Positions 7,917 through 57,116 of a DNA stretch of 64,000 nt are shown piece after piece (positions within the stretch are counted from its first letter, which is position 1; each line of letters starts with the position of its first letter). A model generated the notes under the pieces. It did no database searches. It was not told the DNA's origin and was given only the letters and a program-made list of their open reading frames with translations. The translations under genes and the position numbers were made by a program. The stretch is from Torymus aiolomorphi (taxonomy: Eukaryota; Arthropoda; Insecta; Hymenoptera; Torymidae). Location: the NCBI GenBank assembly GCA_036365515.1, contig CM070874.1, positions 169,567,297-169,631,296 of the forward strand. The letters run 5' to 3'.

Positions 7917-8302
7917 AATAACGAACGCAGGTCAGGCACTGAGGAACCTGGCGTGACAAGGCATGCCATAAGAGATCGCGGCCAAAAGGAGGCCCAAATA
8001 TCGGGGTAGCGCGGAAAGCTCCGGCAACCTACGGGAGGAAAAGATACTCCACTGTGACTCATCAGCAGACTCGGATAGCCAAGAGGACTCATCACCGGAC
8101 TCGGATACGGAAACCAAGACTCTGAGGCCGAGGAGGCATAGGTACCGGAAACAGACAGAAGGAAGGCCAGGGCGAAAGCTTCCTGCCTGCGGACGATACA
8201 GTAAGGTGGAGGACTAAACGGCAATTCAGTAGTGAGGAAGGAGTGTAACATGCGGACGGGTTGCACGTAGCCAGTACACCGTTAGCCTCAGCCGTCACGC
8301 CG

Positions 8303-8709
8303 CACAGTGTTCGGAAATCGAAAATTTATGGACAAGTTACCTTGCAGCCCACAATTTTCCATCGATTTTGATGACTTTTTTTTTTAAATTAAAGCTTTTG
8401 CAATTGCCAATCGATCCCTCCAGGTCGATTTTCCAATTTCAGTCCAGAGTTCATGCCCAGGATTCATAAACTTATGAAACACATATCCAGACTCTCCTAA
8501 ACTTTACAAATGCAATTCAATTAACCAAAAAAATTTTTCAGAGAGAGAGAGAGAGAGAATCATTCTAGTTAATAAAATTTGAATGAATTACCCGCTTAAT
8601 TCACAATTAAAATTTTAAGTCTTGAATTAAAACTCGTTAAATTAAGAATTAAATTTTAAATATTTAATTGATGGTCGTTATACTAGATCTCAAAATTGAA
8701 ATCAGGGGG

Positions 8710-8763
<54 letters not shown>

Positions 8764-8992
8764 GAAGGATTTATTTGGTTAACTGAATTGAATTTGTAAA
8801 GTTTAGGAGAGTTTGGATATGTGTTTCATAAGTTTATAAATCCTGGGCATGACCTCTGGACTGAAATTTGAAAATCGACCTGGAGAGATCGATTGGCAAT
8901 TGCAAAAGCTTTAATTAAAAAAAAATCAAAATCGATGGAAAATTGTGGGCTGCAAGGTAACGTCCATAAATTTTCGATTTCCGAATACTGTG
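8303..8992. mobile_element. Foldback MITE, Transib-like (heptamer CACAGTG, TSD CGCCG)
   Basis: A 690-bp palindromic element with arms of about 230-260 bp: left 8303-8560, right about 8760-8992. The left end begins CACAGTGTTCGGAAATCG and the right end, reverse-complemented, CACAGTATTCGGAAATCG. It is flanked by the identical 5-bp direct repeat CGCCG at 8298-8302 and 8993-8997. Transib superfamily elements are known for CACWATG-like termini and 5-bp GC-rich target duplications, which this fits. No transposase is inside, so it is nonautonomous. The arms carry a (GA)n/(TC)n pair (about 8538-8559 and 8712-8759). It sits in the spacer of the gypsy relic. Confidence 0.8.
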
Positions 8993-8997
8993 CGCCG

Positions 8998-11070
8998 TTC
9001 CCGACTGTCACGCGAGCGCAACCGCTAATATTTGGACAACAACCACTGTATGGCGAAACTCCTACCAAAACACCAACGAGTGAGACGAACCTTAATGAGA
9101 TTTGACTGCCAGGTCAGTCAAGCCGCCCGCAAAGCATGCCTATTGTTTTGCTCCCAAGAATAAACCCCGAAGCACTAAGACAAAAGGAAGGAGAAAACCT
9201 GGAAAAAACGGAAGTTTCGACCCTGTACCAGGAGAGTTTCTTGCTGTACGTAATATTGATGGCGGCTTTTGGCTTTGCCGGTAAAACCGAGATATATTCA
9301 AATTCAAGGGCCAGGTTCGAGTGCTTTAGCTTGTGGAATCTGGCGAGGATAAACAAGCGTATACTCTTGACTTATCAGAACAACATAGAAATTGGAAGTA
9401 TACTGAGTAATGTTAATCTGACGAAAATATCGAACTACAGATATCACCTGCCGAAATCGGAGTGGGAACGTATAGGCGAAATATTAAAGGAATCTATCAA
9501 AGCAGAAAAAAACTCCGCGACAATGGGATTCGAGCCACAGTCCCTAAGTAATAGTAAGATCGCGGATAATCCGCGTAAGGGGAAGTCCCAGCACATGAAA
9601 AACCAGTCTGGTTGGAATGCAGGAGTCGGAAAAAGAGTACCCCGTGGTAACCCCCATCCAAGAAAACCACGAGGGTAATGAATTTCGTCTCGGAGACACG
9701 TTCTGTTCACAAAATATAGGCCACACGAGCGACTCCGTAAAGGACAGGCTACGTCAATCATTAAACGGCCCCGATAAAAGAGGGACCAGGGTAAAGTTAG
9801 AGTAGACATGGAGCAAAGGGAGAGAAATGGTCAATCGGGGTTCCGTATAGATGTATGGGAAACACCCGCTCATCCGCAAGAGGACGCTCGAACCCAGGAT
9901 ACATCTACATCCCATAAAGGGCCACCAGCTCGAGACTCGCATCTAAGGTGGAATGAAAGTTCAGCAGCAATCTTACTATTTAAAAACGCTAGTCCCAGGA
10001 GAGAAAGACAAAAAACACAATCAGAAGGCGAAGCGGACCTAGCCCCCGATACGGAAATGCCATCCTACAACGAGGACATAGAAGAGGACTAGATACGCGC
10101 TCAGTACGGCTCGCGCAGGGAGTACTATCGCGTCGCACCATAAATGACGATGAAGCGGCTCCGAAATTGAATAAAACGGACCCCGGCACACGGGCCGGCG
10201 GTATTGACCCAAGGATCAGCACCCCCGAAAACCAAAGAAAGGCAGAGGAATCGGATACCCGGCTCTTTACTGACAACGAGGCCGAGACTCCTAATCCAAG
10301 GAGAAGAATCCACCACTGGAGCAGCAAAAAAGGCAAAGCGGTAGAATGAACTGAGATGCTCAGTCTACGAGCAGGCCGAGCCCTGCGAAAGTTACCAACG
10401 AGGAAGAGCTACCAAATGATTCTTGAGACGGCGACCGGCCATCGAATCACCGCGAAAAGGAAGGGAAATCGGACCAGCGATACACCACCCCTAGGGAAGT
10501 CAGCGACAGAACCCACTCGTCGACTTCAGCACAAGGGTTTTACGTATATACAGAGGAATCGGAATGCGGACAGCCAGACCTACCCCTCGCCCAAGATAAG
10601 GACATCCCGAGTTCTCCGCATGGGAATGGCCTTTCTTTTCCCTGATTAAACCACTACGATTAGAGACATCTCCCGGAGAAATACGAGCAAAGTTATTAGC
10701 GAACCCGGCTCTAGAATCCTGTGGAAACCCTCTTGAAGCCTGTCGTATTCTATCAGACATCAACGAGTGTGCCAATGGAGACTGCATTTACATATTCTTA
10801 CACGAATACAACCAGAGCGTATACGTACAGTTTCAGGTAATCTAGCGGATAAAGTTTCTCCACTATAAGGTTAACACCCCGAATTCGCACAAATAGATCT
10901 AGTAGGGATCCACTATACTCCATATATCCCCGCAACGGAGGAGACCCCGAGGCAGGTTGAACGCAATATTGCATCCGAGGGATGCCATAGATGAGGCACA
11001 GCTAGAGGAGCTACTTCCGACCCCCGCACACCGCACAGAGTTAATGACCCAGTAGTCGAAGTAAGACCGT
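8998..11070 (+). other. Gypsy spacer region with unrecognised open frames
   Basis: A moderately GC-rich region between the RNase H and integrase parts of the gypsy relic. The longest plus-strand frame is 9136-9678 (180 codons), overlapping a second frame at 9102-9284 that ends in 'NIDGGFWLCR'; the coding frame may switch near 9270. Further charged, Pro/Glu-rich frames lie at 9808-10092 and 10167-10349. I do not recognise any of them. Position and composition suggest retroelement-derived sequence (extra spacer or displaced gag), but no motif proves it. Confidence 0.35.
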
Positions 11071-12725: not shown

Positions 12726-12920
12726 GAGAATCACGAGCTTTCAATAAACGAGTAAATAAAGCTTCAGGAGAGATGGTAGACCACGAAAATTTACCGAAGC
12801 CCCTCAGACGACATCAGCGCATATTATATACGTTCCTAGAACAAGAATGAAAATTTTCTCGCGGCCCCTCAGACGCCGTATGTGTAAGGGTCGATATCTC
12901 GTATGTTGGAATCGACAGAC

Positions 12921-13320
12921 CGTCGGCTGGGAGGAGAAAAGTACCATCTCGTTATTTCGGTAAGAAAAGTACCATCTCGTTATTTCGATAAGAAAAGTAC
13001 CATCTCGTTATTTCGGTAAGAAAAGTACCATCTCGTTATTTCGGTAAGAAAAGTACCATCTCGTTATTTCGGTAAGAAAAGTACCATCTCGTTATTTCGG
13101 TAAGAAAAGTACCATCTCGTTATTTCGGTAAGAAAAGTACGATCCCGTTATTTCGCTAAGAAAAGTACCATCTCGTTATTTCGCAAAGAAAAGTACCATC
13201 TCGGTGGAGCGCTAAGAAAAGTGCCAACTCGCGGTTTGTTTTTTGATAGACGTTTTAGTTGAGAACCGCTGTAGAGTTTGGAAAGTCTGTTTCCGATTTC
13301 TTTTACTATATAAATATAAA
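12921..13320 (+). repeat. Left inverted end with eleven 28-bp repeats
   Basis: Starting at about 12935 there are eleven tandem units of 28 bp with core GTACCATCTCGTTATTTCGG. Unit 8 carries a 'gtacgatcccg' variant, unit 10 ends in 'ggtggagcg' and unit 11 is divergent. A unique segment (about 13230-13320) completes the inverted repeat. Ordered repeats at both ends of a DNA transposon commonly act as transposase-binding sites; that role is inferred here. Confidence 0.9.
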
Positions 13321-13457
13321 TATAATTTGAACACATAGAATTTTTATTTGAAGCATGAATAAAATCAATATTTAAAATTTTATAAACAAAATAATAGATT
13401 TATTTTTTGACTTATTTATATGTTACATTTAACGACTCTGAAATATATATATATTTA

Positions 13458-16400
13458 TTAATTAATCAAATTAAGATAAAAATCATGATACTGATTCGGT
13501 ATTAGATTTTTCTTCATTAGCATACGAAAATCGTTCGCTTTTTCCTTATCAATAGGCAGTTTTGAGGCATAACACCTAATTAATAATTTTTCTTCATTAA
13601 ATTTTACAGATGAAATGTTCACTTCCTTCTTATAATTTAAACAATATTTAATTGTTTTATCGGGCTTAATTTCAATTTCCGATATAGTAGAGACAGGGAT
13701 TTTTTTCCAAAACCTTTTGTCGCACAAGGCTAAAAAATCAAAAATTTCATCTTGCGATATTTCGTTCACCACATACTTTGGCTCTTCAGATTTTGCTGTT
13801 CTAATAATATTACACCATTCTTCTTGGCTGAAAATGGGAAGTTGCCTTTCAGACGCTCTTTCTATAACTGAATGGACAGAGTCTCCACTGGATTGGGTGT
13901 GCCCTTTGACCAAATATCTAAATAAAGATAATGAGAAAAGTATGCTATCAATATACGTTTAAAATATCCAGTGTATAATAAAACCACAGTTGTAAAAAAT
14001 GCTTTATTTAAAAAAATGTTTAAGACTTTATGGTATAAGGATTTAAAAACGCCGCGCCACCCATCGATTCAAATATGCCGCTCATAGAGTCACGACATAA
14101 GTTCTTTGTAATAATTAATAAGTAGTTAATTATTTAATAAACTCCAAGTTAAGTTATTTTTCGAGTTAGAGCTTCAACGCTTAATTGAGCAACGAATTCC
14201 ACGTTCCAGTTGGTCAAACCGGCGACCATTGTAGAAACGCCTTTCTACTCCTAGACCCCGACTTGGGTCGTAACAATACATATTATACGCGCGGTCTGTA
14301 ATGGAATGGCAGTAGTGGCAGTCCATTTACTTCGTTTAAGATTGTAAATATCTATTGTCACGCGAAAAATTATAAAGTGTATAAAGTGTATTATAATAAT
14401 TGTAGAAGCAGGGACAACAAGAGGACCCACCAACGAAGAAAAAAAAACATAATAAAATTAAGGGACCACAATAGAGAAACATAACCTACAAGATCACGGA
14501 TGGGCCATAGTTCAGCTGTTGAAGAACGTTTTTGTGTTATCGTTTTATGAGTATATTTGTATATATATTTAAGTTATAAAGTAATAGTATTTAATAAGTA
14601 TTAAACTTTAGTTTTGTATCATTTAGTTATATGAGTTAATTTTTATTTCTTTATATGCCTAAAAGTTTATTTTTGCCAAGAGTATTGTAGTTTAAAATTT
14701 TTTAATACAGCTATATTTACATTTGCCATAATAATTTTTGCCTCTGATACAAACCTTTTAAATTTCTAGTCATCAACGAGTGTCAAAGTTTTTGTTCAAC
14801 CATTCATGGATTGGATAGGTGTGAAAAATACCTGGCTCTAAAATGTATCATCGGTTTCATCTATTCAAATGTCAAATTGTGAAAGAGAATCGACTCACAA
14901 TGTAGAAATTCACAGGTAACTCCAAATAGAGCTTTACGTCTAATAATGAAATTTTTAAACTACCTAGTAGCTAATGAAATTTGAATTTTATCTATGAGAA
15001 TAAAAATAATATCTTATATCTCAAAACTAATGTAAAATAAACAGACTTCAATCTAAGAAAGGAATTACGATACTTGTATTTTCTGTTGTAGTCATTGGTC
15101 TTACAAAATTTTAAACAATTATAGACTTTCATGATCAGAATGAACAAGTTTAAGCTTCTTTATTATCAAAGTATTTCTGGTTTATTATAATATCAGATTA
15201 TTATGATCTTTTAGTGAACAACTGTATATATTATTATAAAGTAAATTATTCAATGATGTAGTTTTAAATTTTAACTATGAAGAAACTATAAAGACAGTGA
15301 CCTAAATTTAAATTATTAATTTAATTATATATATCCAAAACAAAAATATTAAAGTTTACAATTTTTTCCTTTTATAAAGATTTAAGAGATTTGATAAATA
15401 GGTTTAGCCGTAAAATAATTATGTCTTCGATTTTTAAATTCTTATAATTTCTGTTCACTTAAACCATTTCCAAAAATATAATTTGTTATTTCATCAAGGC
15501 ACATTATTAAATATATATCTAAAACAAAAATATTATAGTTTATAATTTTTTCCTTTTATAAAGGTTTAAGAGATTTTATAAATAGGTTTAGCCGTAAAAT
15601 AATTACGTATTTGATTTTTAAATTCTTATAATTTCTGTTCACTTAAATCATTTGCAAAAATTTATTTTGTTATTTCATCAAGGCACATTATTTACTTTAT
15701 TATGTGGTTTTCAGATTTAAATTGTCAAGTTCTAAGTCCAACCAAAAGATGATCACTGATACTGGCACAAGGGTGAGTGATGACCATGTGCAGATAGAAA
15801 ACAATGAATACGTTACAGATCATCGCAACAACTGATAATGTTTAAGTGATATCTCTTTTTTTATTCATTTAATAAATTTACTTCATATGATTTGAAAAGT
15901 TATGTTATTAATTTTTGATAAGTAGACTGAATCTATTTTATCTTTCTTTCAGGTGAAAGTGTACTGACTCAACAATTTTTTTTAAATATAGAACCAAATT
16001 TTTTCAGCGAGGACTGCTGCTCGGGAGAGCCTTATACATTCACCATGGTAAAAATTGTAACACCTCAAATTCACCTCAAATGTTTTAAGCGTTTCTTATG
16101 TGATCAAGTTTATAAAGATTGTTGTTTATTGATTACAAGGTCTTTTATTTTTTCGTGAAGGCGAAAGTATATGACTCTTGAATACTGCGAGCGAGCTTTA
16201 AATGTAAAAACGAAGTTTTCATATGGCCGAATCCATCTCAAATCAGACAGCCCGCGTATGCCTATTTCACCTATCATGTTGAAATAAAAATATTTATGTT
16301 CTACTCGAAAAAATATTTTACACGTGTTTTTTTATTTTTTTGTTTCATCAAAATTTCATGCGTTCAGCGATACCGAAAAATTCCGAGAAAATTCTTTCAT

Positions 16401-19400
16401 TGAGAAAAAAAATTTTCAATGTGATTTTCAGACTGCTATTGTTTCAGCAGTTTTTCAAGCTTTTAAACGTGTAACACATAATTTCACTCAGTTTTGAGCC
16501 CTCTTTAACGGCCTTAATGTCATTTTCAAAAAAAAATAAATCCACGAGCTATGCACTTTTTACTGAAAAATTCATTTTTTAGAGAAGTGCCTTTTTCTCG
16601 AAAACCCCATGTTTTTTTTGCACAATTTTTGTTGTCGTGATAGAGGACGGTAATGCCTAGCTAGACGTATTTGTGAGATTCGGTACTTTTTTCCTGGGAT
16701 AGCGATCACTAATGAGATAACACACAAACAAATTTTTCACGCTTAACGCTTATATATAGTCAATGATATTAGAGTCAATGTAAAGGTATTTATCTTTGTG
16801 CGTATGTAATATACATGTACGTGCGCCTACTTATAGGAGTATATGTACTAGTACATTTGTCCGCTAGATGGATATGGTTTGACTTAACATTTACAAAGAA
16901 AAGTTCGGTTTCTGCTATATATCACACATCTCGTCTTATTTAAAACCATCATCTTTTGGAAAATTATTACATATTTACACCTTATCAACTCAACTACGAT
17001 GTCTCAATATTACTCAACAGAGAGAATCAAATGTGCAGACTTTTTAGACAAACACAAACAAATTATTTACAAATCTAGTTCCGTACGTTTAAAACAACTT
17101 GAGAATCTTGCTCATCCATTGAAGCACCTCTATCCTCATTTACCTTTGACACCTTCTACATATCTGTGTCAACATTGTTACAATCGTGCTTTAGAATTGG
17201 TGAGTAGTACTGACAATGAATTTATAACGGATAATGAAGTTACCGATAACGTAGTTGATAGAGATGAAGATTTTTTACCAAGTACTCCAGAACGCATTGA
17301 AGAATTTAATAATGAAATAAGTACATCTTTCTTAGGTTCTGTATCGCCTCTTAAAAGAAAAAATCTTATACATGAAAAATCAATTGAAAATTACGTAACA
17401 AAGAAGAAAAAAAAATACTTTCAACATTGTCTAATACCCTTGATGTGAAGTTGAACAATGTTTATGACGTTTCTATAACAGCAAATGAATCAACTGTATG
17501 CCATTGTACAGAATGGATACAAAATCTTGGTCTAGCCTTGCAAAAGTGTTCTACGGTATCAGAAAAAATAAAAATTCTGACTTTGCTACCTTCATCCTTT
17601 ACAAAACATGAAATTTTATCTTTATTTCCAGAAATAACAATGTATATGATCAACAAATCGAGAAATCTTGTTAAAGAAAAAGGAATTTATTCAGAACCAG
17701 ATGCATATTCAGGCTATCCGATTGATGAAAACATGGAAAAAATTGTTATGGAATATTATTTAAATGATGATTTTAATTGTTCAAGACAAAGTCCTAATAA
17801 ATGTGACGTTGTTACAATTAAAGTTAACAATAAAAAAGAGAAAAAAGTTAAGCGTTTTCTTACTCGAAGTTTAAAAGAGACGTATAAAGTATTTAAAAAT
17901 GATTATCCAGAATTGAGAATTGGAAAATCGAAATTTTATAGTTTGCGACCAAAGTATGTCTTACTTAGCCCCATCAAAGAAGTTTGTCTCTGTATCTATT
18001 GCGCAAATTATGATTTATTTCTTACGAGCTTAATTAATTTTAGAGGGAGTAACGTCACAGAGTTGGATGAAAGTCGGTCACAAATAATAAATGCAACAAT
18101 GTGTTCTGAGCCATCTGATTTATGTTATTTACAAGAATGTAAACTATGTCCAGGGATTAAGGGAGTTACGTTTCATGTTTTAAAACTGCAAGATGTAGAA
18201 GGCACAGAAGAAATTACATATGCTTTGTGGGATAATGGAAACCTAATTAAAAAGACACTATCAATTTCTGCTTTTAAAGATGAACTTTCGGTTTGGACCA
18301 TGAGGGTTAGTACTCACATGTATGTAAAAAATATACAACGCAAAGCTATAAAAACAGAAAGAGAAAGTGCTAAAAAAGACTCACATCATTTAGTTCTTCA
18401 AATAGACTTCGCTGAAAACTGGGCTGTGATTCATAATAAAGCTGTTCAAGGAAATCATTGGGTTAATGATCAAATTTCTATTTTCACAGCAGTCTCTTAT
18501 CAAGGGGATTCGACACAAAGTTTCGCAGTTATAAGTGATGACCGAAAACATGATTCAGCGTATGCTTTGCTAGCAGTACAAAAAATTATAAAATTCTTGA
18601 AAGAAAATTGTTGTGATTCAATTAAAAAATTACTATCGTATCAGACGGCGCTGCGAGTCACTTTAAAAATCGCTTTCAATTAGATGAACTAAAACGAGCA
18701 CCGTGTGATATAAAATGGTTGTTCTCTGCTACTGGGCACGGCAAAGGAGCTGTAGATGGTGTGGGTGGACTTATAAAGCATTATGCTACTTCGCATAATC
18801 TTCGAGAGCCCCTTGAAGAAGCTATTCAAAACGCAAATGATTTTGCAATACATGTTCAAAAATATACTGATGCTATTAAAATAATACATTTACAAGATGC
18901 TGAAATAGAACAATTCAGAAAAGAAAAAAATATTGATTGGCTTACAACTCCAAAGTATCCTGGAATTCAAAAACTCATATATGGGTTAAAAAAACATGTG
19001 ACGATAAAATACATTGTTTGACAGCAAAGACCGCTGATCGTCCGCTTACTGAATTAAGAACAATGAAGCAGAAAAACAAAGCTAGTAAAATAGGTATACA
19101 AATGAAAAAAAGGTATAAAAATAAAAAATCAAAAAGACGCAAATAACAAATAAATACATAGTTATGTGTACCTGTATATTACATACACACAAAGACAAAT
19201 ACCTTTACATTGACTCTAATATCATTGACTATATATAAGCATTAGGCGTGAAAAATTTGTTTGTGTGTTATCTCATTAGTGATCGCTATCCCAGGGAAAA
19301 AGTACCGAATCTCACAAATACGTCTAGCTAGGCATTACCGTCCTCTATCACGACAACAAAAATTGTGCAAAAAAAACATGGGGTTTTCGAGAAAAAGGCA

Positions 19401-22400
19401 CTTCCCTAAAAAATGTATTTTTCAGTAAAAAGTGCATAGCTCGTGGATTTTTTATTTTTTTTGAAAATGACATTAAGGCCGTTAAAGAGGGCTCAAAACT
19501 GAGTGAAATTGTGTGTTACACGTTTAAAAGCTCGAAAAACTGCTGAAACAATAGCAGTCTGAAAATCACATTGAAAATTTTTTTTCTCAATGAAAGAATT
19601 TTCTCGGAATTTTTCGGCATCGCTGAACGCATGAAATTTTGATGAAACAAAAAAATAAAAAAACACGTGTAAAATATTTTTTCGAGTAGAACATAAATAT
19701 TTTTATTTCAACATGATAGGTGAAATAGGCATACGCGGGCTGTCTGATTTGAGATGGATTCGGCCATATAGACTGCAGGAAGAGTTAGCGTGGTGAGAAA
19801 AGTGAGGTACACATGGACCCCCAGTCCTGCTAGTGAATAAATAGTTGTAAGATATTTTTTACCTATGCGAAATCGTGACTCCTAACGAAATTGCAGCCTT
19901 TGTGTACATCGTATATAAAATTTGGTTTTTATTTTGGCCGCCACAGTTGTCACTGCAGAACCGAAAATCTAGTGTACCCTGTCTACTCTTATTGAAAATG
20001 TACTTCCACAAACAACTGCATATTTCGTTCGCCCCTCTCTTAGCCGTAGTCTCGTTCCATAAGAAACACTCGGCTTCTTTGCTGTTGAGGTCGAATACGG
20101 TAAAGTTGTAGATGGACAGTTTTCTCTTATAGTAAAAAGACGAAATCTCGCCATGAGGAGCGTTCAAAACCTTCTGGAGATCATAAGAAGCACATAAAAT
20201 TTGTGATTCGCTCTGCGCTTCCTCTTTGTCATTACGGACTTTATCGCGTATCTCATTTTTATTTTTTAAATGTAAATCATGTGGCACTTGATGTAATGAC
20301 CATTGCTGCTGAGCATCTGAAAAAAGGAAACCTCAATTTATATAAGATAAGGCAAAATGATTAAACATACAATATAAATAAAGAATAGTCAATTAGAAAA
20401 CTATTGAGATCACAAATAAAACCTTTGTGAACTTTTTATAAGATTTACACATTTAAAGTTTTTAAAATCATTTATGTTCGATTGCTTATTAGTTCTATGA
20501 TTTCTTAACGTTAAATAATCAATATTCTAAATAATTAAATTTAAAAAAAAAATCAAAATTTTGCAAACAATTTGTTTATTTCAAATTTTAATTTGAAACA
20601 CATAGTGACAAAATAAATTAGCGATTTAAATTTTTAATATTTACTTACTTGGAAGAGAATAGTATGCGGCACAGTCATCACATTGATCTTTTTTTGGGTG
20701 GTGAAAAAATAAATTGAACTCATTGTTAAAAACATATCTATATCTATATTCTGATGCTGTGTTAACTTCTTCGCCCTTACTTTTCATCCACATCTTATAG
20801 AGCTGGTACATTTTAGTAATAGTCAATTTTTCATTGAGATATTCTCGTGTAGTATTGCTCCTACAGTAATGTGACTCTTTTTTCGGAAAGGATTGTATGT
20901 GATCTCGAATCAATGTTAATGCAACATCGGAAATCTTTTGCCTTTTTTTCGAATTTTTTCCTCGCATGTCACCTCCAATTATTTGTCCAGCTTGGGAATT
21001 TTTCTTTTTTGAATTGATAGTGTTTAAAGGTGTGCGTGATATTCCTGATAAAAAGTGCAAGTATACGATAAGTGGCAAAGAATTAATACACATTACAAAA
21101 CCACAATACAAAATAAAGATGCTCTTACCGAAAGTATTCAGGAACATCTTACGACAAACTTTAACTTCCTGTCCTGAAGCAACAAGAAAGTATTCTTTTG
21201 AACCGTTCTTATTGGTATCGGTATTAGGCTGCTCATTTGTATCTGTCTGAATCTTGGTTTTCGTTAATCTGTCTAGATACAGCCATTGTCGCGGGCGATC
21301 TTTAAGTAGCCAAAATTCTTTAAAATGAATTTTGCGATCCGCAAGCGTAATTCTATCTGGGCATTTATAGCGACAACCTCCGCAAGTTAGTCCAATTTTC
21401 TTTTTTTGATAGGACAGCCATTTCTAGAAGTACCAGATGTACCACTGTTCACAGCTTCTTTATAAGTATTACATTTCCAATTATGGGGTTCTCGTTTACG
21501 TTTGCGGGTACGAACTTTTCCCGAAACATTGAGAGACTCTAGATAGTAATAATCGTAATAAAACATTATGATTTAAGTCTTTCTTAAAAATTATTTCATT
21601 CACAATTCTTTATCAATAACTTTGATACTTGAATTTACCTTCACTGTCATTGGATAGTGCAAACTGTGTATTTTCATCTTCTCCTGATTCCTCTGGTGGT
21701 ATGTGATTAAAGCTTAGGTTTGAATCTACTTCAGTATCAGCATCGAAGTTACTAAAAGAATCACTATCATATTCGTCATTTAAATCAGATGATTTCAAAG
21801 CTCTCAATGGAATTCCTGTTGGATTTAGCTTCAGGTTTGAATCTATAAAATAACAATTTTTTGTCATCAATCAAAATACTTTATTAATTTCTTAAAAATC
21901 ATTAACTATAACTATTTGTTAAATCATTAACTAACTAATAACGTAGAACTAGAAAGAGTATGATCTAATAATATTTGTGTTAAAATTTCAAGATTAACGT
22001 TATAAAATATGTTTATGTTATTTATTAAAAACACGTGTTCAGAGATTATTAATAAATTACAATAGTTTAGTGAAAAGTATCTCGTATATTTTTTAAGTAA
22101 ATTTGACTACTAAAAAAAATGACAAAATTGACAGTTAATAATCGTAATAAACATTATGGTTCAAGTCTTTCATAAAAATTACTTCACTCAAAATTCTTTA
22201 TCAATAACTTTTATATTTGAATTTACCTTGACTGTCATTGGATATAGACTGCGTATTTTGATTCTCTCCTGATTCCTCCAGTGGTATGCGATTACAGTTT
22301 AAGTTTGAACCTACTTCAGTATCAGCATCGAAATTACTAAAAGAATCACTATCATATTGGTTATTCAAATCATCTAAAGCTCTCGATGGAATTCCAGTTT

Positions 22401-23760
22401 GATTTAGCATCAGGTTTGAATCTGTAAAATCAAAATTCTTACTATAATATGAAATAATAAAAAAAGATTATTAGTAGCACATTTTTACAATAATAAAAAT
22501 TATAGAATTTATCAGTAAATTATACATTGAAATACATGAAAATCTTATAACAGATTGCATAATTAATTTATGGATTTAATTATTCTAAGTCGGCTGGTGA
22601 TATGTCATTAACTGAACTAATAGATTAGTCATCTAGAAACAGAACATGCATATATATACAAACTTACTTTGACGGTTATAGTCTATTGAATCGTATGAGG
22701 TGAGATGTTTTTGAGAAATTTCAAATTGAAAATTCAAAGAAATACTTTTTAGATAATCTATAAAATATAAATGTAATTTAAAACATTAATATACAAAGAA
22801 AAATCATATAAGCATTGTTTTTTTAAAATAAATTTGAATTACCTAAGTAATCTGAAAAATTTGCATGTGTAAATTGTTTGCGAGCATTAGGATTTGACTT
22901 ATCACATTCATTAAAAAATGCATTAGATTGCAATTTACTTGAAGAATTGAATTGCCATGGATCTGAAGAATCCTCGCTTCTAACTCCAGAGAATTGCTGA
23001 ACATCTGTTTTTGGTAAATTTTCATGAGACCCTTTAAGTAGGAAATAGAAATTAATAACTTTTCTTATTATTTCAAACTAATTGACTAAAAAATATGAAT
23101 ATGAATAATATTTAACTTACTTGAGACCGGACAACTTTTTAATTCTATAAAGGTCTTAGGAGAATCTGAAGTCGTATTATGAAAATTAAAGCTGTCCTTC
23201 GAATCTGTTTTATAATAAAAATGAGAAAATATGTCTTTTGAAAAAAATGAATTGTTATAATTTTTTCCAACAAAAAGGTCAACTGTTTACCTTGTTCTAA
23301 AAATGGGTTTATCTCTTTTACACTCTCTAGTTGATGAGTATCCTCAAACCAATCAAACTTCAAATCTATTATTTTAGAAAAATTTTATGAAAATATATAT
23401 TTAAAATAATGAGAAATAAATACGATGAAATTTACGACTATTATTAACTTGAAATAAATTAATCTGTACGCTATTAGTACATATAGTACATATAAAAAAT
23501 ATATCATTACAGAATGTACAAAGAAAAATTATTAAGAAAAAGTAAAAATTTTATATTAATCCAACGCTTTTGTTATAAGTGTGAATGAATTTAACGTAAC
23601 ACGAGAATAATAGGTATATTATATATAAACCGTGTAGAAAATCGCGCATTTCGAGTATGATTTAGAAATGAATGCTACTTAATCGGATATTAAGTAGCAT
23701 CTATGTCATCACACAATGCATTTTCATAATAAAAATAAAGAAATACTTAACTTCATCCAT
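13458..23760 (-). CDS. Multi-exon transposase-like protein (SDNCGGQNKN / GHTQ family), about 850 codons
   Basis: Minus-strand exons inferred from GT-AG sites and frame: ATG at 23760-23752, then 23357-23291, 23204-23121, 23031-22843, 22757-22668, 22421-22227, 21842-21639, 21538-21129, 21044-20649, 20316-19863, 13917-13458. The upstream exons join in phase 1 and the last join is phase 2. The first five to six exons encode an acidic Ser/Asp/Asn-rich N-terminus. Next come a basic 'RTRKRKREPHNWK' patch and a 'CGGCRYKC' motif, then 'HHPKKDQCDDC', 'YNFTVFDL', 'FLWNETTAKRGANEI', 'FCSDNCGGQNKN', and in the last exon 'YLVKGHTQSSGDSVHSVIER'. This motif series belongs to a widespread, poorly characterised animal family. 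A catalytic role for the D/DN/D residues is inference. One frame break lies in a T7 tract at 21401-21407 (plus strand). A poly(A) signal candidate is at 13404-13399. It is the only gene native to the 13.7-kb element. Confidence 0.75.
13918..16224. other. AT-rich intron sequence, left of the nested transposon
   Basis: Part of the last intron (13918-19862) of the minus-strand gene. No supported coding sequence. It holds a 185-bp tandem duplication (15334-15700). A plus-strand frame with an acceptor-like 'tggttttcag' before 15716, ending at a stop near 15835, is too short to call. Confidence 0.5.
15334..15700. repeat. 185-bp tandem duplication
   Basis: Two copies starting at 15334 and 15519 share 'aaaacaaaaatatta', 'ttttttccttttataaag', 'taggtttagccgtaaaata' and 'atttcatcaaggcacatta', with scattered substitutions. 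Confidence 0.85.
16225..16820 (+). repeat. Left inverted end of the nested transposon
   Basis: About 596 bp, matching the reverse complement of 19168-19765 with few differences; both carry 'gtcgtgatagaggacgg' and 'aatgcctagctagacgt'. The gene promoter must lie here or in 16821-16998, because the ATG is at 16999. Confidence 0.9.
16999..19146 (+). CDS. Transposase-like protein with DFAEN / SDGA..FKN / GHGKGAVDG motifs
   Basis: ATG at 16999 begins a frame with two N-terminal CxxC-like pairs ('CQHCYN' at about 17168) and an acidic stretch. Downstream (17427-18683) are a 'KVNNKKEKKVKRFLTRSL' region, 'CLCIYC' and 'CKLCPG' Cys pairs, and 'LQIDFAENWAV' followed by 'GNHWVNDQISIFTAV' and 'SFAVISDDRKHD'. 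A third block (18650-19021) gives 'SDGAASHFKNRF' and 'ATGHGKGAVDGVGGLIK'. A basic tail reads in another frame to 19146. The acidic residues of DFAEN, SDGA and VDG are plausible RNase H-fold catalytic residues (inference). Frame changes fall in A-runs at 17407-17415 (A9), 18625-18630 (A6) and possibly 18988-18994 (A7). The full protein would be roughly 700 residues. The family is common in animals but lacks a name I can assert; Sola is one possibility. Confidence 0.75.
19168..19765 (-). repeat. Right inverted end of the nested transposon
   Basis: Inverted copy of 16225-16820. It begins just after the transposase stop region and ends at GGATTCGGCC followed by ATAT. Confidence 0.9.
21639..22421 (-). 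repeat. Tandem exon duplication inside the transposase-like gene
   Basis: Exons 22421-22227 and 21842-21639 are near copies. Both begin with a 'ttttatag/ttttacag' acceptor followed by 'attcaaacctgakgctaaat', share the 'YDSDSFSNFDADTEV' core, and end at a 'gtaaattcaa' donor. The downstream intron flanks are also alike ('aattctttatcaataactt'). The repeat spacing is about 585 bp. Both exons keep phase 1-1, so either can be used or skipped without a frameshift. Confidence 0.85.
23672..23700. repeat. Perfect 12-bp inverted repeat with 5-nt loop
   Basis: Arms 'atgctacttaat' (23672-23683) and 'attaagtagcat' (23689-23700) around 'cggat', within the inferred first intron of the minus-strand gene. Function unknown. 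Confidence 0.8.
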
Positions 23761-24187
23761 TGTACTACGCCTAGTGTGTATGTGCTAAACCTGCATAATT
23801 ATTTCAAAGAATTACACTATTAAACGCGTGAAAATTTCAAAAAAGGCGGTGAAGAGGTAAGGCACTCAGTACGGTGGTTTTGCTGCGTATGGCGCGCGCG
23901 CGGATTTCGATCTGTGTCTACCCCCCCTTCAACTACTGTCACAGTAGTCGCAGTCGCAGCGGATTCCGAGAAATAGCTTTCGACTCCAAAACATTGAAAA
24001 CCTCTGCTAAAGCGGAGCTTTAAAAATTTCGGAGTTGGACGGGGGGGGGGGGTGATTTCTTTACTAAATAAGACTCCTCTCATCTATTTCATTAAAATAT
24101 AGGTTCTAAGAATGTTGGAATTATTTATTGGAATATTTTAAAAGAGTAAATTATATAGTACATAAGTAATATATGCAATAAATTACA

Positions 24188-24238
<51 letters not shown>

Positions 24239-26191
24239 AAGAGAGAGAACATATAGGTATGTGTATATTTACATCGAGGTTTTTGTTGGACGGTTGGCAG
24301 AGCAAAATAATCTTTCATTGGAAGAAAAAAACAATCGAGTTTTGTGCGTATAATGAAAAATGTTAGGTTATGTTTTGTTATCAAACTTGACAGTATATGA
24401 TATAAGAGCAGATGTTTTTAATTGCATTTCCTAGATGAGATAATATTTTTGTTTAGTGCATCAAAGTGTATTTAAATTAAGGAATTCATTGATAATGCTA
24501 AAGTAGAGACTAGTGGGAATATTAAGGATTGATTATTTAACTGTCATCAGAGTAGTTTTTAATTTTGTGCTCTGTCAGTTTCATTTTTTTCGTAGTAGGA
24601 TTTTTTCATTATTATAGGTAGGATATGACCGACATATGTTTATTAATACTCTGTTCTGAGTTTTTGTTTCTGCAAGGGCAGTTTGGGTTGTTCGACATAT
24701 TCTTTCTGTAAAGACTGGGTGTTAATGAGTAGTGGTTTACTTTAATACTGTTACTGATGAGTATATAATAAATTCAAAAATTTTTATTATGAATCATTTG
24801 GTAGTATTGGCTTTGTGAAAAATGGAGAAATAAGTTTTATTTGATATGTATTTCTTGTAAGAGGTATTTTATTATGCTGCAAGAATCTGTTACGATTGAG
24901 ATTTTTTTAATATGAAGTGGATGGCCTAAATAGCCATATATATGTGGATTGGGTCTATTGTGTGAATAAAAACACTGGCGTACATTTAAAACATGAATAT
25001 GCCATTTGAGTTTGGCTAGTGCATATCTAAACCTGAATTTTCCAGGGGATTGATTGAGATCCACCCGTGAGCATTACTGCAAGTTTATAATAGCTTCTTA
25101 TCAAACAATTCAGAGTTTCCTGGAACACTTTCATTTTTTATAATCTCATTCCAAATGGACAATCTATTTTTAGTTTGTATATAAGAGTTTTGTAATTGTC
25201 ATATGGTAGGGGATTCATTGAAATCATTGATTTCATTGAAATAGTTGTATAATTTGAGTATAAGTAAAAACTTTGTTCTTATGTTAATATTCAAAAATTT
25301 ATATCTTTAAGCGGGCCAGCCTGAGTTAAAACCTGATAATATAGATTTGAATATAATTAATCCAGTAATTATTTCTTCAAATCTAAATAAAAAAAATAAC
25401 TTTTTAACTCAAAAACATACATAAAAAACAACATTTTAGCACCTCACTGGCTCCTATACTTTGATTTATAAGTGTGTAATATAACTACTGGATTGAAGTA
25501 TCAACTTTTGTATATCATCTCATGTCTCACAGCGCTGCTCTAGAACGCTTTGAACAAAATGAATGAGAGAGTGGATAAAATCTTTTTTTTGTATATTTAT
25601 ACAAAATGAACAGAGCAGATTTTTGAAAAATTTTAATTGTTTTATTAATATACATCTTTGAATAATTTTTTAATGATTTTTTAATGATTTTGAAAATTTT
25701 CTTACATATTTCTATACATAAAAATTAATTAGGTGTCTATTTTCAAAATCTGCTGCGTTGATTTTGTGTAAATATATATATAAACAAGATTTTCCCCACT
25801 CTCTCATTCATTTTGGTCAAAGTATTCCAGAGCAGCTTTTTTTTTAATATTGTTCAGAAGACCTGATTTATAGTTACCAAAAGGATTTATTTCAATGAGT
25901 CAGGTGCACATTATAGCATTATGCTATTGTAAAGGGATCTTGTACTTCTTTGTTTGGGTTAGCTGTGGTTGAATTTTGGAGACAGTGATTGTTATAATCT
26001 ACTAGCGTTAATTGGCGCACTACGCACGCCTATGTTCGTCTTTTTTTAGTGAAAATTTAATATTTAATTGTTCGATAAAACGATAGTTTTTGAATAGGAT
26101 TTTTATATTAAGGGTATTACCTACACTGTCAGAAAACTTGCGCATATATTAGGATATATGGATTCCAAAAATTTATGACCATTTTTGGCAC
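23761..26191. other. 5' flank of the transposase-like gene within the large element
   Basis: AT-rich apart from a GC-rich patch at 23860-24055 with a poly-G run of about 13 (24041-24053), just upstream of the inferred minus-strand ATG and so a candidate promoter area. A (GA)n tract spans 24190-24249. A 75-codon minus-strand frame at 25064-24837 is unrecognised and not called. A MITE-like palindrome sits at 25534-25836. Confidence 0.4.
25534..25836. repeat. 303-bp MITE-like palindrome
   Basis: Inverted arms of about 95 bp: left begins 'gctgctctagaacgctttga' and right ends 'agtattccagagcagc'. Both contain 'aatgaatgagagagtgg' in opposite orientation. No clear target duplication; no coding content. 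Confidence 0.75.
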
Positions 26192-26592
26192 ATTTATATT
26201 TATATAGCAAAAGAAATCGGAAACAGATTTTCCAAACTCTACAGCGGTTCTCAACTAAAACGTCTATCAAAAAACAAACCGCGAGTTGGCACTTTTCTTA
26301 GCGCTCCGCCGAGATGGTACTTTTCTTAGCGAAATAACGAGATGGTACTTTTCTTAGCGAAATAACGGGATCGTACTTTTCTTACCGAAATAACGAGATG
26401 GTACTTTTCTTACCGAAATAACGAGATGGTACTTTTCTTACCGAAATAACGAGATGGTACTTTTCTTACCGAAATAACGAGATGGTACTTTTCTTACCGA
26501 AATAACGAGATGGTACTTTTCTTATCGAAATAACGAGATGGTACTTTTCTTACCGAAATAACGAGATGGTACTTTTCTCCTCCCAGCCGACG
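26192..26592 (-). repeat. Right inverted end with eleven 28-bp repeats
   Basis: The reverse complement of 12921-13320, with the same eleven units and the same variant order, including the 'cgggatcgtac' unit at about 26364-26375. The inner unique part ends in 'tttatatttatatag' at about 26192. Confidence 0.9.
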
Positions 26593-26841
26593 AGACGCAA
26601 TCGCGAGGAGTTCGCACGCCCAAGTTGCATTAAAAAGGCACAGCACTAAGATAATCAAAGAAAAAATTGTAATCAATAATATAATAATAAACGTTACAAT
26701 GATTTGCTTAAAATCTATCACCAAAACCTCTAGAGAATTATAAGCAGACACACATGACAGATTTCAGAACCAACAATCAAACATAGCACGCTTGTGACAA
26801 ACGAGTCATAACCTGAGACTAACTAAGCAACACGCGTATTA

Positions 26842-27207: not shown

Positions 27208-27479
27208 TAGGGGGGCTTCGCCCCCTGCTCGCTCCGCTCGCCAACCCCCATTATTAGAGATAAATATTAATAATAATGAATGAGGATAATCTTCTATTAC
27301 ATAATATCATGAAACACTTATTTTTTCATTTAAAATTTATGTAATGTTTTTTAAAAACATTATTCTTAACATTTATTAATTTTTAAAATACTAAGTATAT
27401 TATATTTAACAAAATAATGCAGAATATATATGTAGTTCATTACGTCAGCTCTGATTTTATTTGTAACTTATTGATTATA

Positions 27480-30400
27480 AAATCCAGTAATATTTCAATT
27501 TTTGGCCGGCATTTTATATTTACAAAATCTGAGATCAGATTCTAATCAGCGAATTCTGAAATTCACTATATACAATTTTTAACAAACTCGAGTAAAATTA
27601 CAATTTTTGTTAGTCATCTTAGGTCCACCAGTTTGAATTAAAATTTTCAGCAAAATCCAATAATATTTCAATATGTGCCCGACATCTTAGATCCGCCATT
27701 TTGAATTCTGAGATTCGTAATCTACAAATCCCCTACATAAAATTATTAGCAAAATCCAGTATTATTTAAATATTTTGCAGCCATTTTCAATTTTTAAAAT
27801 CTGAGTTCAGATTCGTAATAATCGAATCCAGAAATCCCGTATATACAATTTTCAGCAAAATCCAGTAATATTTCAATATGTAACAGCCATTATCGATTGG
27901 CAATTTGGAATTCTGAAAATCTGAGTTCAGATTCTTAATCATCCAATCTAGAAATCCCGTACATACAATTTTCAGCAAAATCCATCAATATTTGAATATT
28001 TGTCCTCCATCTTCGATCCGCCATTTTGAATTCTGAAAATCTGAGTTCAGATTCGTAATCAGCGAATATATAAACTTCCTATATACAATTTTTAGCAAAA
28101 GCCAGTATAGTTTAAATATTTTTCCGCCATTTTGAATCTTTAAAATCTGAGTTCAGATCCGTCATAATCGAATCCAGAAATCCCGTATACGGAAAGAAGA
28201 ATTCACAGCTGTAGCCCGTAACGCGCGAGAAAAAAATGGCGTGCCATATAGCATCGCCGTATGTAGTGACATATGCGTCTATGACTGTGACTGTGGTCAT
28301 TTCGATGAACGGTGCTCGCGTGACACGGCTGTAGGCCGTGACTATTACTGAGTTCAAGCTTTAACGCGCACGGCGGCAAGCGTGAGTGGCACGTCTGAGG
28401 ACTGCGGCAGTCACCCCATATAGCATTGCCTAGAGACCATCGTTGACATGCCTGAATTTCGCGCCGTCACACGGTGGCAGAGATGGTACCCGCGTACTCT
28501 GTTATAACTCACGGCCTATAGGTCTGAATGCTTCTTTCCGTGTATATACAATTTTCAGCAAAATTCAGTAATATTTCAATACGTGGCAGACATTTCGTTC
28601 AGCCATTTTGAATTTTCAATATCTGAGTTCAGATTCGTAATCAGCTAATTCGGAAACCCCATACATACAATTTTTTTGCAAAATCCAATATTATTTCAAT
28701 ATTTTACTGCCATATTGAATTTTTTAAATCTGAGTTCATATTCAAAATCAGCGAATCCAGAAATTCAGTATATTCAATTTTTAGCAAAACAGAAAAGTTC
28801 AATTTTTGGCCGCCATCTTGGGTATGCCATTTTGAAGTTTCATAATCTGAATTCTGATTCATCATCATGCGAATCCAGAAATTTTCCATATGCAATTATA
28901 AAATTCAGCAATATTTCAATATTTGGCAGCCATTTTGAATTGGCAAAATATGAGTTCAGATTCGTAATCAGCGAATCCAGATAGGTTCCCTATATACAAT
29001 TTTCAGCGAAATCCAGTGATATTTGAATATTTCGCCCCCATCTTCGATGCGCCATTTTGATTTCTGAAAATCTGAGTTCGAATTCATAATCAGTGAATCA
29101 AAATACCCAACATACAATTTTCAGCAAAATCCAGTAATATTTCAATTTTTGGCAGCCATTTTGTATTTACAAAATCTGATTTCAGATTGCTAATCAGCGA
29201 ATCCGGAAACCCATAATATACAATTTTTAGGAAGTTCCGGTAAAATTTCAATTTTTGGCCGTCATCTTGGGTCTTCTATTTTGAATTTTCAAAATCTGAG
29301 TTCAGATTCATAATCAGAGGATCCAGATACGCCTATATACAATTTTCAGCAAAATCCAATAATATTTGAATATTTGGCCTCCATCTTCGATCAGCCATTT
29401 TGAATTCTGAAAATCTGAGTTCAGATTCATAATCAGCGAATATAGAAAACTCCTATATACAATTTTTAGCAAAAGCAAGTGTAATTTAAATATTTTGCCG
29501 CCATTTTGAATTTTTAAAATCTTAGTTCAGATCCGTCATAATCGAATTCAGAAATCCCGTATATACAATTTTCAGCAAAATCTAGTAATATTTCCATTTT
29601 TGGAAGCCATCTTGGGTCCTCTATTTTGAATTTTCAAAATATGAGTTACGATTCCTAATTGCCGAATCCGGAAAGCAACTGTAGACAATTTTTAGCAAAC
29701 TCGAGTAAAATTTCAATTTTTGTTAGTCATCTTGGGTCCACCAGACTGAATTTTCAAAACATATGTTCTGATTCATAATCAGCGAAACCAAAGATTCGGT
29801 ATATACATTTTCAGCAAAATCCAATAATATTTCAATATTTGACCACCATCTTCGAATCCGCTATTTGGAATTCTGAAAATCTGAGTTCAGATTTGTAATC
29901 AGCGCATCCAGAAATCCCTTTTATACAATTTTCAGCAAATCCAGTAGTATTTGAACATTTTGCCTCCACCTTCGATCAGCCATTTTGAATTCTGAAAATC
30001 TGAGTTGTGATTCGTAATCGGCGAATCCACATAGCCCTTACATACAATTTTCAGCAAATTCCAGTAGTTTTTGAATATTTTGCCTCCATCTTCGATCAGC
30101 CATTTTGAATTCTGAAAATATGAGTTGTGATTCGTAATAAGCGAATCCACATACCCCGTAGATACAATTATCAGCAAAATCCAGTAGTTTTTGAATATTT
30201 CGCCTCCATCTTCGTTCAGCCATTTTGAATTCTGAAAATCTGATTTGCGATTCGTAATCAGGGAATCCAAATACCCGTTATATACAATTTTCAGCAAAAT
30301 CCAGTAATAATTCAATTTTTGGCATCCATCTTGTGTCCTCTATTTTCAATTTTCAAAATCTGAGTTACGATTCCTAATTGGCGAAACCGGAACCCACTCT

Positions 30401-31490
30401 ATACGATTTTTAGCAAAATCAATTAAAATTTAAATTTTTGTTAGAGATCTTGGGTCCACCAGTCTGAATTTTCACAATATATGTTCAGATTCGTAATCAG
30501 CGAAACCAAAAATTCCGTATATACAATTTTCAGCAAAATCCAACAATATTTCAATATTTGACCACCATTTTCGAATCCGCCATTTTGAATTTTCAAAATC
30601 TGAGTTCAGATTCGTAATCAGCGAATCCAGAAATCCCTTTTATACAATTTCCAGCAAATTCCAGTAGTTTTTGAATATTTTGCCTGCATCTTCGATCAGT
30701 CATTTTGAATTCTGAAAATCTGAGTTGTGATTCGTAATCAGCGAATCCACATACCCCTTATATACAATTTTGAGAAAATTCCAGTAGTTTTTGAATATTT
30801 CGCCTCCATCTTCGATCAGCCATTTTGATTTCTGAAAATCTGATATGGGATTCGTAATCAGCGAATCCAGATACCCCTTATATACAATTTACAGCAAAAT
30901 CCAGTAGTTTTAGAATATTTCGCCTCCATCTTCGATCAGTCATTTTGAATTCTGAAAATCAGAGTTGGGATTCGTAATCTGCGAATCCACATATTTCTTA
31001 TATACAATTTTCAGCAAAATCGAGTAAAATTTCAATTTTTATTAGCGATCTTGCGTCCACCAGTCTGAATTATCACAATATATGTTCAGATTCCTAATCA
31101 GCGAAACTAAAAATCTCGTATTAAGGTAATACAAATTTCAGCAAAATCTAATAATATTTCAATATTTGACCACCATCTTTGAATCGGCCATTTTGAATGT
31201 TCTTAATCTGAGTTCAGATTTGTAATAAGCGACTCCAAAAACTCCTTATATACAATTTTCAACAAAATACAGTAATATTTCAATATGTGGCCGACATCTT
31301 CGATCCGCCATTTTGAATTCTGAAAATCTGAGTTGAGATTCGTAATCTAGAAATCCCCTAAATACAATTATTAGCAAAATCCAGTATTATTTAAATATTT
31401 TTCCGCCATTTTCAATTTTTAAAATCTAAGTTCAGATTCCTAATCAGCGAATCTCGATACCCCCTATATACAATTTTCAGCAACATATCT
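27480..31490. repeat. Satellite array, ~120-bp monomer, roughly 30 copies
   Basis: Landmarks such as 'ttcagcaaaatccagtaata', 'ccgccattttgaattctg' and 'gaaaatctgagttcagattc' recur about every 115-122 bp (for example 27851, 27971, 28091). Monomers vary in the 'gccgccat' segment. Each carries two small inverted repeats, AATCTGA-gt-TCAGATT and GATTCG-taatcag-CGAATC. The array is interrupted by a MITE at 28189-28541. Confidence 0.9.
28189..28541. mobile_element. 353-bp MITE inserted in the satellite (TSD GTAT)
   Basis: The ends ACGGAAAGAAG and CTTCTTTCCGT are inverted. GTAT lies on both sides (28185-28188 and 28542-28545), and removing the insert plus one GTAT restores a normal 'cccgtatatacaattt' monomer junction. 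The internal sequence is GC-richer than the satellite ('gcccgtaacgcgcg'). No coding sequence. A 4-bp duplication. Confidence 0.85.
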
Positions 31491-46562: not shown

Positions 46563-46740
46563 TTAAGGGGGTCAGACACCTTTACAATTTTCTTCATAAA
46601 ATGACCTAAAAAAATTAATTTTCATAATCAGAAATATCTAGAAGTAATATCCTAAAAATATATTCAATTTATGATAAAATGAGATCAAAAAAAAAAAAAT
46701 TTTGATCGATTTTAACCAAATATATGGCCATTTCACAATT

Positions 46741-47077
46741 TTTGCTCTGCCGTCGACTCCAGATTCAGGAACTGCATATATTTTAATGGGAGAGATCCTA
46801 AAATTTTGGTATTTTATATGACTATTGATTGAAGAGTTGTACGTATCCAATTTATTTGATAAAATAATTTTTTACGGTCAAAAATTGCTAAAAAATCTTA
46901 AATTTAAGTGAAATTCAGATTTTTTAGCAATCTTTGACCGTAAAAACTTATTTAATCAAATAAAAATTGGATACATACAACTCTTCAGTCACTAGATATA
47001 TAAAATACGAAAATTTTATGACCTCTCCCATTAAAATATATGCAGTTCCTGAATCTGGAGTCGACGGCAGAGCTCAA
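46741..47077. repeat. ~340-bp palindrome
   Basis: Arms 46741-46898 and 46917-47077 are inverted copies (about 160 bp) sharing 'tctgccgtcgactccaga', 'gaactgcatatattttaatg' and 'ttgctaaaaaatct', with an 18-bp loop. Confidence 0.85.
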
Positions 47078-48083
47078 AATTTTACATTATGTAGAAAACA
47101 GCTTTAAAGATAAAATTACTAAAATACTTCTTTATTTCTTAACTCCATCTCTGCCCTGAAATACAAAAAAATATTGTTTTTCGCTCAAAATATTTAACAT
47201 TTAGATCAAATATTCTGGTACCTCAGTATACGATCTATCAGACTTGTAAGCTATGAGCAAGCGTAACTTTGGTGCTTTTAAATCCATATGTTTTTAATAA
47301 TCTTTATCACATATATTAGATTATTATACATATACTTAGGTAAATAAAGAATCTGTTAAGAAATCCAAAATCTTTCATGCATGTTATGAAGCCAGTATCG
47401 CCACAGCCAAATTCTTGAAAAAAAATGTTTATAGCAGCAACATTCCTATATTGATCTTCTTTTAATCTCTGATAAGGTGAACTTCTTTACTTGTCCTTCA
47501 TTATTCTTTTTCACATATAATATTATTACTTAATAAAGAGAATACGACTGATACATATTTAATGCAGTGCATAACTGTTTTTACTTCAGAAAATAAAATG
47601 TCAATTATATCATAGTGAGATTCAGGCAATGGCTGATAATGGTAGCTTTCTGGCAGAAGTGAAGGTTCCATAACATTTTTCTGCACAATAGCATATCTTT
47701 CGCTTCCTTTAAAAGTTGATTTAAATCTGTACACTAAATGTTTTTTGTAATAGTCAATATAGACTTAATTTTTCTTTGGTATCAATCCCTGTTATTTTAA
47801 GTATAAAATTTCCAATAAAAGTTCAAGTACTAAAAGCTATTTCTAAAACATTAATTCAACTGTCACACGTATTATTCAAACACTTTTAAAAACTGATTTA
47901 AAATACCTTTACGTATTATAATACACTAAATGTTTACTCCAAAATCCTTTGGAAACAATGAAAATTAAGAACAACACTTTGTATAGAAAAGGTGCTGATG
48001 CTGATATCACAGTGTTTATATGAAATGACAGCTGTGCATGTTTACATTGCTTGCGGACTTTTACATAGGTTAAAATCAGCTCT

Positions 48084-56537: not shown

Positions 56538-57116
56538 GGGGGTTAGTGCGATTTAGGGTTTTCTTAAGAATTTCTTCAAACTTGCAGACTAGACTCTTAT
56601 TACTATTATCCATAATATCTGCAAATTTCAGAAAGCCTAGCTTCATCGTTTGTGAGATATAAGCTCCCAAAGTTATGAAATTTAATACGGTGTCTTATGG
56701 GAGAATCGTCATAAAATCTGAAAAAATGAACGTTTTCGTCAATAACTTAAAAAGTTTTCTTCAGATTTGAAAGAAAAAGATATGTTACTAAGGACAATAC
56801 TTTGAATGTTCTCTACAAATTTCAGCAATCCTAGCTTCACCGTTTCCGAGATACAGTTGTTTAACCTTTAGAGGACATAGCCTCGGTTTAGACGACGCCG
56901 CGCGTGCCCTTGTGTGCGTATAAACAAACGAAGGCGCGCTGCGTGTGTGCCTATACAGACGGAGTGCTATGTACATGTACATACAGATGAAGCGGCGCTA
57001 TGTGTGCGTGGATAGTCTCGCGTGAAATTTTGAGAGTGGGGGAACTCGAGAGAGTACTAGGCGTATGGCGTTCGATTCACTGTACTTTTGGCGCGTACTC
57101 TACCGCACTAACCCCC
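56538..57116. mobile_element. 579-bp TTAA element with GGGGGTTAGTGCG ends
   Basis: TTAA (56534-56537 and 57117-57120) flanks inverted ends GGGGGTTAGTGCG and CGCACTAACCCCC. It is nonautonomous and inserted in the BEL/Pao integrase. Its right part is included in the 479-bp tandem duplication, giving an extra right end at 57595. Confidence 0.8.

Follow-up and report, generated by a model that had tools for sequence, protein, structure and literature searches.

What kind of mobile element has ends built of short tandem units, and does the gene between those ends encode the enzyme that moves it? The question is raised by positions 12921 to 26592 of a 64,000-nt window, the whole stretch of DNA analysed here, from the genome of Torymus aiolomorphi (assembly GCA_036365515.1, contig CM070874.1, 169,567,297-169,631,296; all positions are those of the window). 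A sequence-only reading had described the locus as a complete 13.7-kb DNA transposon with a single eleven-exon gene, probably autonomous and of a lineage that it could not place. We hold with high confidence that it is a DNA transposon of the cut-and-paste kind, ~10.1 kb long, in which the only gene recognised codes for a DUF7869 protein, a predicted RNase H-fold DDD/E transposase. The ends, the further copies, the 4-bp duplications, the conserved triad and the varying number of units are seen directly in the DNA.

Bounds and inverted ends

The outer features of the window copy are:
12917..12920, no strand: left target-site duplication AGAC, backed by 4-bp duplications at 10/11 independent insertions of the family
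12921..13321, plus strand: left terminal inverted repeat, with a 14-nt tip, eleven 28-bp units and a 79-nt inner part
26192..26592, minus strand: right terminal inverted repeat, built as the left end
26593..26596, no strand: right target-site duplication AGAC, read in the window

Self-comparison of the window gave inverted ends of 401 nt each, identical at 397 of 401 positions. Each end runs from the tip (CGTCGGCTGGGAGG) through eleven 28-bp units, in matching order at the two ends, to the inner part, and both the repeat-built ends of about 400 bp and the AGAC at either flank had been correctly recognised from the sequence alone. The 13.7 kb had been taken for one unit and are not: the window copy reaches this length only because a separate, later transposon (16225-19765) lies in the last intron of its gene. 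When the right flank was searched (best 40 of 1532 candidates scored), no paralogous empty site of the outer element was found, and no other place matched the first ~250 nt of this flank, all further matches starting at query position 248 or later. The DNA left of the insertion site looks, by eye, like the remains of a retrotransposon, integrase-like frame included.

Full-size copies and target-site duplications

Searching the genome for the ends had been proposed in the sequence-only reading, and we searched the 1.08-Gb assembly (21 contigs) with the left end. This yielded 58 matches, with scoring limited to 40 of 303 candidates; the fetched places are a subset, so that copy numbers are lower bounds. 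Beside the window copy (copy A) there are at least four further full-size copies of 9.9-10.3 kb, each with the same minus-strand gene:
Copy B, C4:99.71 Mb, 10,151 bp, duplication ATGT/ATAT (one mismatch)
Copy C, C4:100.69 Mb, 10,114 bp, duplication AATG
Copy D, C1:74.60 Mb, 10,266 bp, duplication ATTG
Copy E, C5:90.87 Mb, 9,931 bp, duplication ATTT

The main aligned blocks of copies B-E are 98.6-99.3% identical to the window copy. Pairwise substitutions among the full-size copies are 0.0053-0.0076 and fall into no obvious subgroup, a pattern that a single recent burst would produce. The flanks of the window copy and of copies C, D and E match over exactly 4 bp and not over 5 or more, which upholds the original element bounds and leaves no other duplication length among these four.

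Perfect 4-bp duplications flank 10 of the 11 independent insertions with both ends readable, diverged relatives included, and the eleventh agrees at 3 of 4 positions. For two 4-mers drawn at random from the window the chance of agreement is 0.0056, and the probability of at least 10 of 11 agreeing is ~3e-22. In this count L018 is a duplicate of L017, L022 mirrors L021, and L023-L034 (12 loci, one flank pair) are a single insertion; loci with one tip (L021, L022, L037, L043) or with no tip at up to 4 mismatches (L038-L042) were left out. Nearly identical inverted ends (397/401) and target duplications of fixed length (10/11 perfect at 4 bp) are the features looked for in a cut-and-paste DDD/E transposon. 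The number of units per end is not fixed at eleven in the family: the left/right counts in copies A to E are 11/11, 11/11, 11/10, 10/7 and 13/3, a range of 3 to 13 per end.

Gene structure and reading frame

The coding exons, all on the minus strand, are given from the first recognisable one to the last:
23291..23365, minus: first recognisable coding exon; start codon not found
23121..23204, minus: N-terminal coding exon; junctions kept in 5/5 copies
22843..23031, minus: N-terminal coding exon; junctions kept in 5/5 copies
22668..22757, minus: N-terminal coding exon; in-phase splice junctions kept in 5/5 copies
22227..22421, minus: N-terminal coding exon; duplicate of 21639..21842
21639..21842, minus: N-terminal coding exon; duplicate of 22227..22421
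21129..21538, minus: coding exon with a Cys-rich motif; frame broken inside the exon in the window copy
20649..21044, minus: coding exon, called by splice junctions and homology
19863..20316, minus: coding exon holding the first and second catalytic Asp (YDLQ, SDNCGGQN)
13459..13917, minus: last coding exon, holding GHT..GD with the third catalytic Asp and a nearby Glu

These ten exons join in phase into one spliced gene, with AG/GT junctions in all five full-size copies; the single spliced minus-strand gene described earlier stands, and its eleventh, start-bearing exon does not. Exons 21639-21842 and 22227-22421, together with a flanking intron, are recent duplicates (85% over 315 nt). The frame is interrupted in exon 21129-21538 of the window copy and copy C; B, D and E are open there and carry elsewhere, one each, a 7-nt deletion, an 18-nt in-frame deletion and a frame change near the end. 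Because its own gene has a frameshift, the window copy is probably not autonomous, as it had been supposed to be; the family was autonomous in kind.

DUF7869 as a predicted transposase

Comparison of the spliced protein with profile libraries, the second check proposed earlier, gave a name to the gene: its 525-aa core matches Pfam DUF7869 (PF25273) at 31.2 bits against a curated cut-off of 26, one exon alone scoring 17.3 bits, and no other Pfam-A family is listed for the core at E up to 1. Relatives with homology over most of the core occur in insects, molluscs, a sea urchin and fishes. A DUF7869 homologue had no match in PHROGs, and of 63 pattern matches in viral contigs scanned with profile A1 none was confirmed. 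Because the window protein retains 69 of the 75 columns that are highly conserved among 120 homologues, its source gene was presumably functional.

The AlphaFold model of a homologue has an RNase H-like DDD/E core with likeness to retroviral integrases and SETMAR, and DUF7869 is therefore very probably a transposase. An RNase H fold and three acidic residues, as looked for in a DDD/E transposase, are both present, the first in the predicted structure of the homologue and the second as a conserved triad. Some DUF7869 proteins (P0159-P0161, P0163, P0165, P0172; P0195) also carry precomputed PF04843 and one carries PF02338 (OTU); this co-occurrence hints at peptidase-like domains fused to, or carried along with, DUF7869.

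It could also be supposed that the gene is a passenger and that a foreign transposase moves the element as it would a Foldback- or Galileo-like one, an idea that the long repeat-built ends and the foldback-like relatives described below would fit. We consider this very improbable: the duplications are of 4 bp, as against the 7-9 bp of the Foldback and Galileo groups (7 bp in Galileo), a transposase fold is predicted for the product of the gene itself, and all five complete close copies contain this gene.

Gene-less relatives and proposed mechanism

Other places in the genome match the window end at 76-88%. The relatives include gene-less forms of 3.3-3.6 kb (L017, its duplicate L018, and L019), among which no transposase-like frame was seen in the listed frames of L017 and L019 (L018 lies outside the listing), and short foldback-like forms of 228-530 bp (L020, L023-L036). 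They have the tips and the 4-bp target in common with the full element, their duplications being ATAT, ATTT, ATAT, ATTT (L023 group), AAAT and TTAT. A foldback relative of 332-389 bp was found at 12 fetched places (L023-L034) with identical flanks and a differing number of units; its duplications are perfect at 10 of the 12 and have one mismatch each in L025 and L027, and a larger dispersed repeat appears to carry it. L037 is a single end, truncated internally, with 248 nt at 100% to the right end of the window copy. The sequence-only reading had raised the prospect of ends that do not enclose the gene: all five complete close copies enclose it, and gene-less diverged relatives and the truncated L037 do exist.

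When 71 units from seven diverged elements are compared, all of them called by their resemblance to the unit of the window copy, conservation is on the whole higher in the first half of the 28-bp unit (AGAAAAGTnCCAnCTCG) than in the second, which would fit a putative protein-binding site. Work on Galileo proposes that repeated sites in long ends give the transposase its specificity (PMC3688188). Carrying this model over, we infer binding to the units, excision and movement in trans. Several transposase molecules would bind the 28-bp units filling each end, pair the ends and cut at the CGTCGG tips, and the element would be joined into AT-rich targets across a 4-bp stagger, whence the 4-bp duplication. 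Unequal exchange among the units would alter the length of the ends, and the gene-less foldback-like relatives would have been moved in trans. The window copy itself has a frameshift and was later invaded by the nested transposon.

The nested transposon

16221..16224, no strand: left ATAT duplication; a single ATAT at the uninterrupted site in 4/4 sister copies
16225..19765, plus strand: nested later transposon, 3,541 bp, with ends of ~600 nt, of a different DDD-type family, with coding frames within 16888-19021 (plus)
19766..19769, no strand: right ATAT duplication; a single ATAT in sister copies

This insertion in the last intron of the DUF7869 gene is absent from all four sister copies, where the site is uninterrupted with one ATAT. 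Its two ends are 97.7% identical over 602 nt, and a search with its left end gave at least 40 matches, all at 100% identity (40 of 1075 candidates scored). Of 16 family stretches fetched, 15 were complete and one too short; all 15 have perfect 4-bp duplications, which are AT-rich and in 6 of 15 strictly AWWT. By these sequences the family (16225-19765; L044-L067) has evidently spread very recently.

Of the 37 homologues of the nested protein, few are named: three entries from ticks and one under the label Escherichia coli. A Pfam scan gave neither a family name nor a DUF7869 match; two PHROGs matches are weak (0.0081 and 0.068). In hhalign the triad of the nested protein (DFAEN, SDGAASHFKN, GHGK..CDG) can be aligned to the outer family's (probability 64, E 6.4e-5; with a smaller set, probability 48.8, E 1.8e-4). 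In its model, too, strands and helices follow one another in the same order around the triad, though with lower confidence (mean pLDDT 79.9). Kinship by profile alignment is suggestive, not strong. The two share 4-bp AT-rich duplications and alignable triads, whereas the nested element is 3.5 kb long, has no 28-bp units in its ends and lacks a DUF7869 match.

Other features of the window

27479-31490: long array of diverged tandem repeats (period ~120 nt), directly right of the element
8297-8998, 46737-47081 and 25534-25836: opposite-strand self-matches at 73-89%, possibly small foldback elements
56740-57693: 475-nt direct duplication, 98.9% identical, copies 4 nt apart

A gathering-threshold search of the window against Rfam gave no match.

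Placement among transposon superfamilies

Rehavkus elements have a MULE transposase and 9-bp duplications. We rejected an assignment to Foldback/Rehavkus (MuDR/MULE), as the sequence-only reading had done, since the duplications are of 4 and not 9 bp and neither the core nor five homologues gave a MULE profile match. PiggyBac was set aside as well (TTAA in 0/11 duplications). No THAP domain or P transposase match was found in the core or five homologues; scanning of the six N-terminal exons covered the duplicate pair.

The 2009 description of Sola reportedly gives a DDD catalytic triad, as is found here, and 4-bp target duplications, a Sola trait, occur in 10 of the 11 outer-element insertions. 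Target length and triad favour Sola but are no proof, and we hold, with fair but not firm confidence, a branch of this superfamily to be the most likely placement. The strict AWWT motif accounts for 5.1% of window 4-mers and for six of the 11 duplications (E, L017, L019, L020, the L023 group and L035), with copy B fitting on one side only and the AGAC of the window copy outside it; we keep the same degree of confidence because 4-bp length and triad weigh more than the exact motif. In dictyostelids, the 4-bp duplications of Sola2 elements follow AWWT and the ends measure 12-21 bp, as described in part of PMC3627910, and an extract of the Repbase description lists Sola with subgroups Sola1-3 (PMC4455052). 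An ordinary Sola element, probably of the Sola2 type and unusual in its repeat-built ends alone, is somewhat better than an even prospect: the duplications and the triad speak for it, whereas five of 11 targets lie outside strict AWWT, the dictyostelid ends are short (PMC3627910, in the part cited), and the likeness to Sola is one of target and triad.

That DUF7869 forms a separate, unnamed DDD/E superfamily with only distant ties to known ones appears unlikely. The spliced core has no Pfam-A match above cut-off other than DUF7869, NCBIfam gave no match for two DUF7869 homologues (or for one nested-family protein), a PDB sequence search with profile A1 gave none, and in the collection of papers searched none was found that names the domain. 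However, the libraries searched held no model recognised as Sola, so that null matches say little, and target length and triad fit Sola. A broader form of this idea, in which DUF7869 is an unnamed animal superfamily with 4-bp AT-rich duplications, distantly akin to the nested family, and its Foldback-like ends evolved independently as transposase-binding arrays, is put forward as a tentative proposal, held to be just as unlikely.

Several points weigh against the main reading, that of a cut-and-paste transposon with a DUF7869 transposase, most likely a branch of Sola. The element is known here from its sequence and a predicted fold, not from movement or protein activity. No start exon came out of a strict scan, and the seven weak candidates from a relaxed one were unconvincing. 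In every copy examined the reading frame or the length of the coding part is altered, and the five copies show no visible constraint by codon position (variable sites 13/852, 14/852 and 9/853 per codon position vs 103/6752 in non-coding DNA). Plain Foldseek comparison was weak, with two rows at E up to 0.001 and TM-scores of 0.16-0.23. The duplication of copy B matches in 3 of 4 positions, only 6/11 duplications fit AWWT strictly, and Sola membership is argued from just the target and the triad.

Comparison with known systems

For a domain annotated as unknown in hundreds of animal proteins, these results suggest a likely function, that of a transposase; if this is true, many 'uncharacterised' gene models are mobile DNA. 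The element also extends Foldback-like ends beyond the P and MuDR superfamilies. Its five copies differ naturally in how many units an end holds (3 to 13), so that the function of the repeats can be put to the test. The DUF7869 proteins of other animals belong to the same family by profile and core homology and differ in being annotated only as a domain of unknown function. In contrast to Rehavkus, with its MULE transposase and 9-bp duplications, the present element has 4-bp duplications and no MULE match, and in contrast to Galileo, with a P-type transposase carrying a THAP domain and 7-bp duplications, it has DUF7869 and 4 bp. With Sola it would have in common the DDD triad. Galileo, of the P superfamily in Drosophila, resembles it in long, internally repetitive ends (PMC3688188, in part), and the Foldback/Rehavkus/Tetris elements do so in repeat-built ends and gene-less foldback forms (for Tetris, PMC4079207). 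The ends of dictyostelid Sola2, at 12-21 bp in the sections cited (PMC3627910), are unlike the 401 nt of 28-bp units found here; the likeness lies in the target, with its 4-bp AT-rich duplications, and in the triad.

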